Origin: Tubulanus polymorphus
Taxonomy: Eukaryota > Nemertea > Palaeonemertea > Tubulaniformes > Tubulanidae
DNA length: 64,000 bases
Reading direction: 5' to 3'
NCBI RefSeq assembly: GCF_964204645.1
Contig: NC_134033.1
Span: forward strand, 14,076,155-14,140,154
Shown: positions 15,275-24,974 of the stretch, in pieces
Numbering within the stretch: position 1 is the stretch's first letter
How the letters are laid out: each line of letters opens with the position of its first letter
Notes under the pieces: generated by a model
What the model was told of the DNA's origin: nothing
The model's input: only the letters and a program-made list of their open reading frames with translations
The model's database searches: none
Translations under genes and position numbers: made by a program

Positions 15275-16698
15275 CTATTTTCCGAAGCCGGGAGGCATTC
15301 GCCCGAATGTGGGTGTGAATGCGGGGTTCCCTAAAACCAAGAAAAAAATCAATGCTAGAATTATGAATAAAGTCAACAATTTAAAAATAGGGTTAGGAGT
15401 TATATTGACATTGTTGTGACGTCGACAGGGAGCGAATCATTGTAAAATTCATATTCAAAGTATTCTTACATTTTCCATTACGCTCGTTTTCACCTAAGAA
15501 AAAAAAACAATTAAAGCTTTTCATAAGATATCTTTAATTCAATTTGCATTGTGTCTACAATTTTTTTTTCGTTGATCGTAAATAAAAAGGCTGCTAAAAT
15601 CAAATTCCAACTGATCTGGATTCGAACCCAAAACGCGAAGATCTAACGGATCAGACCTCGGCAAGATTGCATTGAAAAGTGGCGGCCCTTTCAATAAGAT
15701 TACCGCAAAAGGCAGATGTTCTACTGACTATCAGTAAGTTTTATTTACCTGATGTGCTTTCGTTCTCATCGCGGTTCTTATCTTTGTCCTCAACTGAGAA
15801 TAAAGAAACAGCGGCGTTTAAGCAATTTAAGAATTTTAACAACCTTTCAGTAACTGCCTCCAGCACTCTCGATCCACGCGGGGATTGATCGGGTCGCAAA
15901 CGTTTTAGGCCATAGAGCCCTTTTTCAAATGAGGAAATATAGGTCGCATTGACAAAAACAGTTTCGGTTCTATGTTATGGCCTAGGTTGCATGATTTGAA
16001 ATCTGTTATTTTTTGCCATTTTAAGGAGAAATTCGACGGATACAATGTGGTCCCATTACTTCAAAAATATGTGGTCCTATTTCTTAATTTTTTTCGAATT
16101 TGATCGTCTAAGTCGCAGCTCTCGAATCAAGAGTACGTGTAAATACCAATATTCTACGGCGACGACGCGAAATGAACACCTGAAGGTCATGTAGTCTGTG
16201 TGTATTGATTACTATAAGGAGTAATCATTAATCGCTCGCGTTATTCAAACACTGAACGCGCTGTATAGATTATTGAGTGAGATTCTGACATAGATTTCAA
16301 ATTGATTTGAGTTCTATAATTCTGATCAGCAGTGCCTTCATAAATCGATCTGGCGGAAGCCTCTTTTCTTGGAGCAATGATTACTCCAAGCTCATATATG
16401 TAGCTATGCAACAACCATTCCTAAAACATTCGACTTTTTCTTTCACAAGTCGTGCATCGTGTATTAAAAGTCCAATAGATTTGTTTTGGCCTGACTAGTA
16501 CGATTTATGCGAGGTTGAGTGCGCTAGTGTCGCAACAGTTCTAACGCTGTAAGGCGTCCTGTCGAATTGACGTTTGAGCGATATGCTTATTAGGTAGATC
16601 TAAAGTAACCCACCATCAGCATTAATTTCTCTTATTGTTATGACGCAGATCATACCGAGTAAGAAACACAGCGCAAACAGACGATTTTGCGTGAACAT
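15275..16698 (-). CDS. Secreted peptide precursor A ending in GRMPPGF-GK
   Basis: Three coding exons (16698-16614, 15793-15749, 15330-15275) splice in phase (1,1) to 61 residues. The ATG is the first codon of its exon, directly after a ctttcag acceptor. An untranslated 5' exon ends at 16854 (donor gtaagt). Residues 1-28 form a signal peptide: MFTQNRLFALCFLLGM, then ICVITIREINAD. Exon 2 encodes a charged acidic linker (VEDKDKNRDENESTS). Exon 3 encodes GNPAFTPTFGRMPPGFGK and stop. A terminal Gly-Lys is the usual signal for C-terminal amidation, and F-G-R inside the peptide could be a second such site. The gene is a paralogue of the one at 23878-24974. I do not recognise the peptide family. Neuropeptide or hormone precursor is an inference; a secreted defence peptide is an alternative. 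Confidence 0.72.
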
Positions 16699-16853
16699 CT
16701 GAAAGAAAAGGGGAAAACGGAAAGAGCTATTTTACTTATTGAGAAAGTATTTCTCAATATTGTTCCTATAATTCTGAATCCAAGATGATGAATAAAAACA
16801 GGCTGTGACATAATGTACACATCCATCGAAAAAGCGGAGATAACGCCACTTAC

Positions 16854-16960
16854 CTTGGTTAAGTAGAAATTTATTCGTCCGTTTCGGTATATGTATTTTC
16901 TTCGCGCGAACGTGGAGCAATTTTCGTTTCTGAAGTGCCAACGGGCAATGCGCGCTATAC
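16854..16960 (-). promoter_or_regulatory. Promoter and 5' UTR exon of peptide gene A
   Basis: A weak TATA-like word (gtatag on the minus strand, about 16955-16960) precedes 'cgcgcattgcccgttg', which is conserved in copy B. The untranslated exon continues with 'ggacgaataaatttctac' and ends in a gtaagt donor at 16853. The whole stretch aligns with 25128-25233 at gene B. The start of transcription, near 16925, is inferred from TATA spacing only. Confidence 0.5.
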
Positions 16961-18442
16961 ACACGCGTAACATTAATCGCTTCGAGATCTCTGGAACCTT
17001 TGATCAATAATCGCAAAAGTAGATGCAGATTGTGTGAAGGCCCGAGTTTGATAATGATAATAATAATAATTATAATTATAATAGTAATAATAATAATAGT
17101 TATCTTTATTTACATTGAAATTATAACATAATATAACACTTAGAGTTTCTAAAGATTAGTTTACCGTCGGCTGCAGGGGAATAGCAGCATGCGGTGTGAA
17201 TTGATTACCTGTTAACGACTGTCTGATGTCACTTTATCAAGTGAAAGTTGAATCAAATATTTCGGCTTTGGTGTAACACATGCAAAGCTTAGAACCAACT
17301 CGTCCCTTCCACTGGACGCTAGATTCGCCGGGAGTCGGTTTCAGATGTAGAAAATGCCTTCGTTAAAAGAATGAAAGCCCATCTTATATGCGTAGCTTTA
17401 AATTCGGGGAAGGTTTTTCGAAATAAATTTCAATGAAATCAACCGTTGAATGCTACGGGTAATGTGGAATTAACTGTGCTAATATCAACGAGTACCCAAA
17501 AACGCGGAGCCTGAAAACTGCTTACTCAGCCTTTTTACATTTCCATGCTTGAACTCAACATCTGTACATAATAAATTGTATTCTCTGATAGGTAACGACC
17601 CGGTAACGACGATCGTCATTAGCCTACATCTCGACGATTTCATGAATTCAATCCTTACTGACAGATGCGGCTTTAGATTTAATTAAAATGCATAAAGATG
17701 ACGCCACGAGCAACGATAACGATAAACAATCATTGTTGTTTATGGTGTCACAATCATAGGTGTATGCAAAGCTAAATTTCACATACGTGTAATCCTGTTC
17801 AGATCATTTGATTTAAATTAAATATATTGTGACCGACAAATGCGGCTTTAGATCTGACTAAATAAGCACGAATAAAGTGACGAGAATTGATTATGCAAAA
17901 CTGTTATCATAATTGTAACTGTCTCTATTTCCAAGCCATAAAAACGGTTAGTAATAGCAAAAATTCATAGTCTTTATGAATTTCTGGTAATAGTAATAGT
18001 ACCCATAGGGTAAAAATCCCCTTAGTTAAAATTCCTCAGGTAAAAAATTCCCCAATTCTTCAAAGTAGGTAAAATAAATTTTGAATGGAGTGTAAGTAAA
18101 TACAATCTAAAAGTAAATTTATTTATATCATTGATACATATATCAAATTTATTCATATTATTCTGTGGATCACCATATCGATATCATAGAATAGAATAGA
18201 ATATATTTTCATTGATCATTAGCATACAACCTATAGTATATAGTATAATTTGAATTAAGTATTTTAATTTGCATTTTTAAATTCATTGAACGCCTTTCAT
18301 TAAGAACTTCTAAACTCCAGGATTGTATGAATTGTTTTCTAAATGAAGTTACTAAACTTAAATCACAAACATAGATCCTTTCGATATTATTTCTGAAAAA
18401 CCTAATTTAACTGTCTGGTATTATATTATCTGATATCGGTGT

Positions 18443-23440: not shown

Positions 23441-23590
23441 ATCCGACGTTTCGAGCCCGACGTCATCTTCACCCGTCAAGGGATTCGAACCCACAACGCT
23501 AAAGGTGTTCCGGAAGCGAGTTCGGGAGTGATACCGGGCCCCTGGCAAGCGAGGATGGCCCGACGTTAGAAGTGCCAGATGCGAATATAC
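23441..23590 (-). repeat. SINE-like repeat with tRNA-type B box
   Basis: Minus strand: GTGGGTTCGAATCCCTTGAC, a Pol III B box (GGTTCGAATCC), followed by 'gggtgaagatgacg'. The same block occurs at 38700-38765. The adjoining 'gaagcgagttcgggagtgat...cccctggcaagcgaggatg' is also present at 38985-39030. This points to a tRNA-derived short interspersed element. Confidence 0.6.
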
Positions 23591-23877
23591 GAACGACGGT
23601 TCAATGACAATCAAATCTATTTTTCTAAAATGACAGCTCTTTGATCGCCGGTTCAGGCAGTTTTCAACAACGAGAATATTCGTGCGCTCTAGATGTTTAT
23701 TGAATAGAACGTCGATATCCTATCGACTTACATTTCATTACCATATTATCAACTGTATAATTTTTTAATGTAATTTAACTCGTAAATAAAGAATAATAAT
23801 GATATCACGATTATGATAATTACTGCCTTAAATCGCTTTGATAATTTTTACATATGATATTATTCCAGTAGATATCT

Positions 23878-24974
23878 TTATTTTCCGAAACCGGGAGGCA
23901 GACGACCGTATTGGGCTATGAATTCGGGTTCACCTAAAACCAACGAAAAATCAATGCTTGAGTTACGAATAAACGCAAATACATAATTTACAAAACAATT
24001 TAAAAATAGGGTATGGAGTTATAGTGACATTATTGTGACGTCGACAGGGAGCGAATTATTTAATAGTTCGCGTATCCAAATCATAATTTCATATTAAAAG
24101 CATTCTTACCTTTTGTTTTACACACGATTTCACCTAAAAAAAAAGACAATAACCAAAAACAGCTTTAATTGAATATCTATAATTCTACGAATAGTGATTT
24201 GCATTGTGTCTACAGTTTGGAAATGAAATGACCGCAAAAGATTGAATAGAAATGTCAACTGATTTGGATTCGAACCCATGAAGTGAAGCCCGGCTAGATT
24301 GTTCGGCTATTTTGATTAAACCCTTTTTTATTAAGATCACTTTGGTTCGGTTAGGTTTGGTATTCATTTACCTGTCTTTTTGTTCACTTTACAGTTCTTA
24401 ACTTTGTCTGCTGAAAAAAAGAAACAGCGGCGTTTGAGCATTCAAGCATTATACAACGACCTTTCAGTAACTGCCTCCAGCAATACCCCTTGTCATCTAA
24501 AACGCTGGTTAATTATAGGGGTAGGGGCGCCCATTTTGGGCCGCAGCACACTTTTTAAAATGTTTTCAAAATATTACACAATTTGCCCAGTATGAAAACA
24601 ATTTATTCTTATATAACGTAAATATTTCAGGGACTAGGCCTCCGCTATAGCCTAGGTTGCTCGTTAAGTTATTATAATTTGAATTCTAGTGGAATTTACC
24701 CCTTGAGAGAAATTGGAAGACCACCCTACCCCCATTAAGAAATCCTGAGGACGCCCACTAAAGAACCTTTCAACAACCTCGCAACAGTTGATACAGATAA
24801 CCTCGACATTCACTAACGCCGTAAAGCGCCCTCTACTGTCGAAGTACATTTGAGCAATGCGTTTAGGTAGATCTAAAGTAACCCACCTTCAGCGGCATGA
24901 ACTTCACTTATTGTAATGACGCAGATCATACCGAGTAAGAAACACACCGCGAACAGACGATTCTGCGTGAACAT
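23878..24974 (-). CDS. Secreted peptide precursor B ending in GRLPPGF-GK
   Basis: Three coding exons (24974-24887, 24410-24372, 23933-23878) splice in the same phases as gene A to 60 residues. The ATG again follows a tttcag acceptor directly. Residues 1-29 form a signal peptide (MFTQNRLFAVCFLLGM, then ICVITISEVHAAE). Exon 2 encodes a basic linker with one Cys and a Lys-Lys (ADKVKNCKVNKKT). Exon 3 encodes GEPEFIAQYGRLPPGFGK and stop. If Lys-Lys is cleaved and the terminal Gly used for amidation, a peptide of about 17 residues ending in LPPGF-amide results. The signal-peptide exon and the last seven codons are the most conserved between A and B. The linker differs in charge and length. Function not recognised; a bioactive peptide is inferred. 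Confidence 0.72.

Follow-up and report, generated by a model that had tools for sequence, protein, structure and literature searches.

Organization of the two genes

We describe here two small neighbouring genes of the nemertean Tubulanus polymorphus that, on balance, probably form a tandem pair of lineage-restricted, prohormone-like genes for small secreted peptides, which would probably be amidated. They lie in a stretch of 64,000 nucleotides (assembly GCF_964204645.1, contig NC_134033.1, positions 14,076,155 to 14,140,154), hereafter the window, to which the coordinates refer; this stretch belongs to contig C9 of the genome searched, which comprises 267.8 Mb in 77 contigs. Gene 1 (15275-16932) and gene 2 (23878-25205), called A and B in the original prediction made from this DNA, are both on the minus strand and about 8.3 kb apart. 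The signal peptide and a C-terminal tail are constrained in both copies, and a charged linker separates them. In each, a promoter and an exon of the 5' untranslated region (UTR) come first, then the signal-peptide exon, two small exons for the linker and a final exon; all of these are shared between the genes, and a conserved block inside intron 4 is listed with them.

16854..16932, minus strand: gene 1, 5' UTR exon; 3' end taken from the donor GTAAGT, 5' end putative; conserved with gene 2
16614..16698, minus strand: gene 1, signal-peptide exon; canonical splice sites with the ATG at the acceptor; phase 1 out
15749..15793, minus strand: gene 1, exon 3, acidic charged linker; canonical sites, phase 1-1
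15470..15493, minus strand: gene 1, exon 4, 24 nt; canonical sites, in frame, gap-free alignment to gene 2
15375..15450, minus strand: gene 1, conserved intron 4 block, counterpart of the gene 2 block
15275..15330, minus strand: gene 1, exon 5, WNPAFTPTFGRMPPGFGK-stop; the intron splits its first codon
25128..25205, minus strand: gene 2, 5' UTR exon; 3' end taken from the donor, 5' end putative; conserved with gene 1
24887..24974, minus strand: gene 2, signal-peptide exon; acceptor directly followed by the ATG
24372..24410, minus strand: gene 2, exon 3, basic linker; holds the first Cys and Lys-Lys
24110..24133, minus strand: gene 2, exon 4, 24 nt; canonical sites, in frame; holds the second Cys
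23994..24069, minus strand: gene 2, conserved intron 4 block; contains GACGTCA, candidate regulatory element
23878..23933, minus strand: gene 2, exon 5, GEPEFIAQYGRLPPGFGK-stop; the intron splits its first codon

As had been predicted, both genes are on the minus strand with the ATG exactly at the acceptor and canonical GT/AG borders, which can be read directly in each of them. The coordinates and description of the exons listed at that time also hold, but one coding exon of 24 nucleotides per gene had been overlooked. Because each gene has this further exon, the splice junctions are eight and not six, and each gene has three coding introns, all of phase 1 and all with canonical GT/AG, in place of the (1,1) pattern originally given, of which phase 1 itself is confirmed. 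Exon 4 is 70.8% identical between the two genes and is predicted to be used in both transcripts, and the reading frame stays open if it is skipped. In fact, exons 3 and 4 both have phase 1-1 and a length that is a multiple of three; skipping of either preserves the frame, and the shorter proteins originally proposed could therefore exist as isoforms. An alternative splice site is possible at the acceptor of exon 3 of gene 2, which reads CAGCAG. In the promoter, gene 1 has TGTATA at 16961, where a TATA box is expected, and gene 2 has TATATA at 25231.

With exon 4 included, the gene 1 precursor has 69 residues (MFTQNRLFALCFLLGMICVITIREINADVEDKDKNRDENESTSGENERNGKWNPAFTPTFGRMPPGFGK) and the gene 2 precursor 68 (MFTQNRLFAVCFLLGMICVITISEVHAAEADKVKNCKVNKKTGEIVCKTKGEPEFIAQYGRLPPGFGK). 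An N-terminal signal peptide is present in both, as judged by hydropathy (mean Kyte-Doolittle values of the hydrophobic core of 2.85 and 2.82 over 15 residues) and by the conservation of 23 of its 27 residues. Both translations agree with the earlier description of a linker that is acidic in gene 1 and basic, with Lys-Lys, in gene 2; the net charge of the chain past residue 27, excluding the final Gly-Lys, is -3 and +3, respectively. Moreover, when exon 4 is used the gene 2 linker contains Cys-x10-Cys, both cysteines of which align to arginines in gene 1; the two cysteines, and with them a disulfide, may have been lost or gained together.

Pattern of change between the two copies

Similarity by itself is weak proof here because the genes are duplicates, with 84% identity in intron 1 and 88-90% in the intron 4 block. 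The coding signal lies in the pattern of change and not in similarity, and the figures, which come from two sequences, are modest. Identical residues number 11 of 31 in the linker and eight of nine in the tail, three gapped positions being excluded. Conservation of the signal peptide and of the last seven codons had been claimed previously, and both are indeed conserved, but the conserved tail extends over nine codons, GR[LM]PPGFGK. A ratio of nonsynonymous to synonymous change (dN/dS) near 1 over all exons had been named in advance as evidence against the genes. The whole coding sequence, at 0.87, is near that value; but it splits into 0.25 for the signal peptide, 2.95 for the linker and 0.09 for the tail (three gapped codons excluded). 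For signal peptide and tail pooled the ratio is 0.18 (Fisher p=0.006), and 8 of their 12 nucleotide differences fall at third positions and none at second ones (p=0.019).

The lengths of the four coding exons differ between the genes by 3, 6, 0 and 0 nucleotides; in the alignable stretches of UTR and introns, the middle of intron 2 being excluded, 5 of 19 insertions and deletions are multiples of three. Neither copy shows damage to the frame, the splice sites or the position of the stop. These observations bear on the alternative that the region is a duplicated, conserved non-coding one that holds an open frame by chance and no working gene pair. Such an origin would fit the promoter, intron 1 and the intron 4 block, which are as conserved as most exons, but the third-position bias, the frame kept open over four exons in both copies, the exon lengths that differ in threes, and the conserved splice sites and stop position all argue against it, and we regard it as quite unlikely. 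The intron 4 block, more conserved between the genes than the exons adjoining it and with no third copy found in the genome, could possibly be a shared enhancer.

A conserved signal peptide followed by a linker with dN/dS of about 3, a tandem duplication and charges of +3 against -3 are also what a secreted defence or venom-type peptide, with conserved leader and fast-changing mature part, might display. In families of defence and venom peptides it is the mature part that varies; here, however, the extreme C-terminus is the most conserved part, there is one cysteine pair or none, only two copies were found in the genome, and gene 1 is acidic. We therefore regard this explanation as unlikely.

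Predicted processing of the precursors

Under the prohormone-like reading, the conserved signal peptide would take the precursor into the secretory pathway, in whichever tissue the genes might be expressed. Both genes end in GFGK-stop, with a glycine followed by a basic residue at the peptide C-terminus, and this Gly-Lys, kept by both, fits the amidation signal recognized by the original prediction: a carboxypeptidase would remove the lysine, the glycine would be converted to an amide, and the peptide would end in [YF]GR[LM]PPGF-amide. It is this tail that selection maintains, and a receptor probably recognizes it. The linker has diverged since the duplication; should exon 4 be used, the copies also differ in their cysteine pair.

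A five-residue [LM]PPGF-amide and an upstream aromatic amide had been proposed as products, and an aromatic residue does precede the conserved Gly-Arg in both genes. As a rule, monobasic cleavage needs support from a second basic residue, located at P4, P6 or P8; neither gene has one at any of these positions relative to the arginine of the internal Gly-Arg. For monobasic cuts, Thiel et al. (PMC8557429) describe a second basic residue that lies 3-6 positions upstream. Both proposed products are doubtful, as the site is a single arginine lacking such support and Gly-Arg itself is conserved; the pentapeptide was accordingly rejected as the main product. Since Gly-Arg does not differ in conservation from the remainder of the tail, it may belong to the active peptide.

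Likelier products are the 16-residue peptide of exon 5, xxPxFxxx[YF]GR[LM]PPGF-amide, or the entire chain, about 40 residues long, which would hold one disulfide in gene 2. A cut after a lysine shared by the two genes would release the shorter form; this lysine is the last complete codon before the exon 4/5 border and has an arginine at P4 in gene 1. The products would be two amides of equal length, GEPEFIAQYGRLPPGF-amide and WNPAFTPTFGRMPPGF-amide. Skipping of exon 4 would place the Lys-Lys of gene 2 directly before TGEPEF, giving TGEPEFIAQYGRLPPGF-G-K after an ordinary dibasic site, and would leave gene 1 with no basic residue at the corresponding place.

We tentatively raise a further possibility, which we would not favour at present: the pair may represent an undescribed peptide-hormone system with [YF]GR[LM]PPGF-amide as its message, in which small phase-1 exons, their lengths multiples of three, would let skipping add or remove a disulfide and leave the message untouched, and in which one copy would since have become basic and disulfide-bonded and the other acidic and linear.

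Several points weigh against the pair being prohormone-like genes. Every rate test is weak because only two sequences are compared, and the linker excess reaches borderline significance (p=0.044 in a one-sided Fisher test, 0.016 by bootstrap), with 2.5 synonymous changes behind it. Part of the similarity reflects a fairly recent duplication, since promoter and introns are also well conserved. Introns 1 and 4 are less diverged than the linker, but intron 3 is as diverged and the middle of intron 2 barely aligns; for this reason relaxed constraint explains the linker as well as positive selection does. As for processing, gene 1 has no dibasic site at all, the Lys-Lys of gene 2 lies inside the cysteine pair when exon 4 is used, and the lysine at the exon 4/5 border, which skipping of exon 4 would remove, has no basic P4, P6 or P8 in gene 2.

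Copies and database searches

In the window there are two matches to the PPGFGK pattern where 0.02 would be expected, and none of 100 shuffles reached two. Nine matches are present in the whole genome, two of them being gene 1 and gene 2, and the reversed pattern has no match there. None of the other seven has GR[LM] ahead of PPGFGK; four of them form one cluster on contig C4. Another of the seven, an unrelated-looking stretch on contig C8 (G000:C8:6561484), also reads PPGFGK-stop, preceded by NSWV and not by GR[LM]. No third copy was found when the genome was searched with promoter plus signal exon, with the signal peptide, with both tails and with exon 4-exon 5, although a diverged one could be missed because the gene 1 tail alone did not retrieve gene 2.

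In Pfam, gene 2 has no match and gene 1 matches only far below the cut-off, to EMP70 (E=0.1) and tRNA_anti-like (E=0.19). The precursors have no match in NCBIfam, and the best hits among PDB sequences (one for gene 2 at E=1.6, 0.32 and 0.45 for its exon-5 piece, one for gene 1 at E=0.46) are not credible. Signal-peptide patterns, the only ones used on viral and prokaryote contigs, matched 41 and 63 stretches, respectively, none of which was confirmed. The strings PPGFGK, PPGFamide and PPGF-amide are absent from 5.39 million open-access papers, and no paper was found with GRMPPG, PPGYamide, PPGYGK or PPGF-NH2; GRLPPG appears in a single paper, which deals with disordered proteins, and PPGFGR in a single one on enamel proteins. 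Two surveys of spiralian peptides (PMC8557429, PMC6425005) name no such family in the portions available. The early remark that no described family with this ending was known is thus borne out for Pfam, NCBIfam, PDB sequences and open-access literature, and within these sources the family is undescribed, the kind of gene, an amidated peptide precursor, being a known one.

Many invertebrate peptide receptors are still without a known ligand. If expressed, the two genes would exemplify a peptide ligand family easily overlooked by similarity searches, because the precursors have fewer than 70 residues, their coding sequence is divided among four small exons and only nine secreted residues are strongly conserved. 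Moreover, two paralogues alike in the tail and opposite in linker charge would offer a direct test of which part of the prohormone carries the signal.

Other features of the window

Between the two peptide genes, on the opposite strand, an intronless frame of 310 residues (20249-21181, plus strand) matches Methyltransf_23 just above the cut-off. Further exons match DUF3517 above the cut-off (4198-4506, plus strand), DUF7773 below it (10763-11062, minus strand) and DUF1647 just below it (59825-60190, minus strand). A 441-residue frame at 56536-57861 (minus strand) contains a 21-bp repeat that reads VQQQGVP, and several other frames are open there too. A tandem array with a unit of 64 bp occupies 41165-42872, most of its central 300-nt stretches being 91-98% identical to a reference stretch. 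Minisatellites of about 39-43 bp are scattered at 40165-40556, 45933-46509, 49124-49320, 50137-50415 and 60319-60528; they look related, occur in both orientations, and several have a core like TGTGGAACTGGATCC. No Rfam match lies within the window.

Comparison with known peptide systems

Several known peptide families resemble the gene pair in part. To the eye, EFIAQYGRLPPGF and AFTPTFGRMPPGF look like scallop GFRQGIVMRIGHGF-amide, which could suggest an allatotropin-like peptide ([YF]xRLxxGF-amide, 13 residues counted from the phenylalanine at position 2). Allatotropins have the form GF...GF-amide or GY-amide and are released at a dibasic site. Here the identities are few and neither gene has a dibasic site directly ahead of the phenylalanine, so that membership was rejected and even a distant kinship is highly improbable; a scallop allatotropin query had no match in the genome, which by itself shows little.

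The cysteine pair of gene 2 recalls luqin, which also has two cysteines ten residues apart (PMC7041311), but there the cysteines come after the peptide, whose end in spiralians is RF-amide. In the gene pair the cysteines stand before the tail, the end is PPGF-amide and the gene 1 linker has no cysteine; as both the order and the peptide differ from the luqin arrangement of R[FY]-amide followed by Cys-x10-Cys, membership was rejected.

Among the matches listed, the LPPGF peptides nearest to the gene pair are bradykinin-related ones, such as RVALPPGFTPLR (PMC4210874). They share the letters LPPGF; the chain, however, continues past PPGF and, as far as the listing goes and with no alignment test run, no wider similarity is seen. 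Identity with bradykinin was rejected.

The most detailed comparison was made with calcitonin. The two genes could be divergent members of the calcitonin/DH31 superfamily, which would have kept an N-terminal disulfide ring and a C-terminal amide, the ring being lost in gene 1. The N-terminal cysteine pair, a calcitonin feature from which DH31 is excepted, is found in gene 2 only, where NCKVN...CKT...QY..L resembles SCKLN...CQT...MY..L of scallop calcitonin. The best alignment of gene 2 among nine comparisons, chosen after looking, gave p=0.0035 in shuffle tests (0.011 with the cysteines fixed), and the best of a rerun, which used seven lophotrochozoan-type calcitonins with a fourth scallop sequence added to the three of the first run, 0.0065 (0.007). 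The spacing of ten between the cysteines also occurs in mussel CALCIIa, one of the seven bivalve-type calcitonins compared, which likewise lacks an N-terminal cleavage site (PMC7200681). The genome has a calcitonin of its own, the one match to a scallop query (C11:9174356-9174463, E=1.1e-4, 50% identity); it encodes KRNCYVNLGGHCQAETAYAMANQIRYLNSADSPGRKR in a single open stretch, is of lophotrochozoan type and goes unrecognised by Pfam, and its NCYVN is also echoed by the NCKVN of gene 2. Its presence supports a lophotrochozoan host; the families COX1, STING and molluscan haemocyanin, queried to place the animal, had no match, which for the last two is no sign of absence.

On the other side, the comparison was picked after the sequences had been looked at. 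Summed over the seven lophotrochozoan-type calcitonins, gene 2 gives p=0.011 (0.045 with cysteines fixed) and gene 1 p=0.58 (0.54); against the genome's own calcitonin gene 2 gives p=0.16 (0.24), whereas that calcitonin, used as a positive control against five bivalve ones, gives p=0 to 0.05 (0 to 0.12). The cysteine spacing is 6 to 8 in six of the seven, and the stretch past the second cysteine counts 21 residues in every one of them against 19 in gene 2. The coding part of the peptide genes is spread over three phase-1 exons, and the calcitonin peptide of this genome lies in one open stretch. A C-terminal Pro-amide is a calcitonin/DH31 feature, CGRP excepted (PMC12638048), and both genes have instead Gly-Phe ahead of Gly-Lys. 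Lophotrochozoan calcitonins (PMC7200681, PMC5996578) are like the gene pair in the cysteine pair (gene 2), the terminal amide and a similar length after the cysteines, but differ in their Pro-amide, usually smaller ring and exon structure, and from gene 1 also in its cysteine-free linker. Membership, unsupported by the shuffle tests and at odds with the missing Pro-amide and the exon structure, was rejected, and a divergent relationship appears distinctly improbable.

Precursors with a single peptide copy do exist in spiralians, pleurin being an example (PMC8557429). Pleurin has one intron in the four genes compared there, its single-copy peptide directly follows the signal peptide and the scallop form ends in PRI-amide, whereas here the tail is encoded by the last of four coding exons. 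The likeness consists in a short precursor, a single peptide copy (in nemerteans, brachiopods and some molluscs) and a C-terminal amide.

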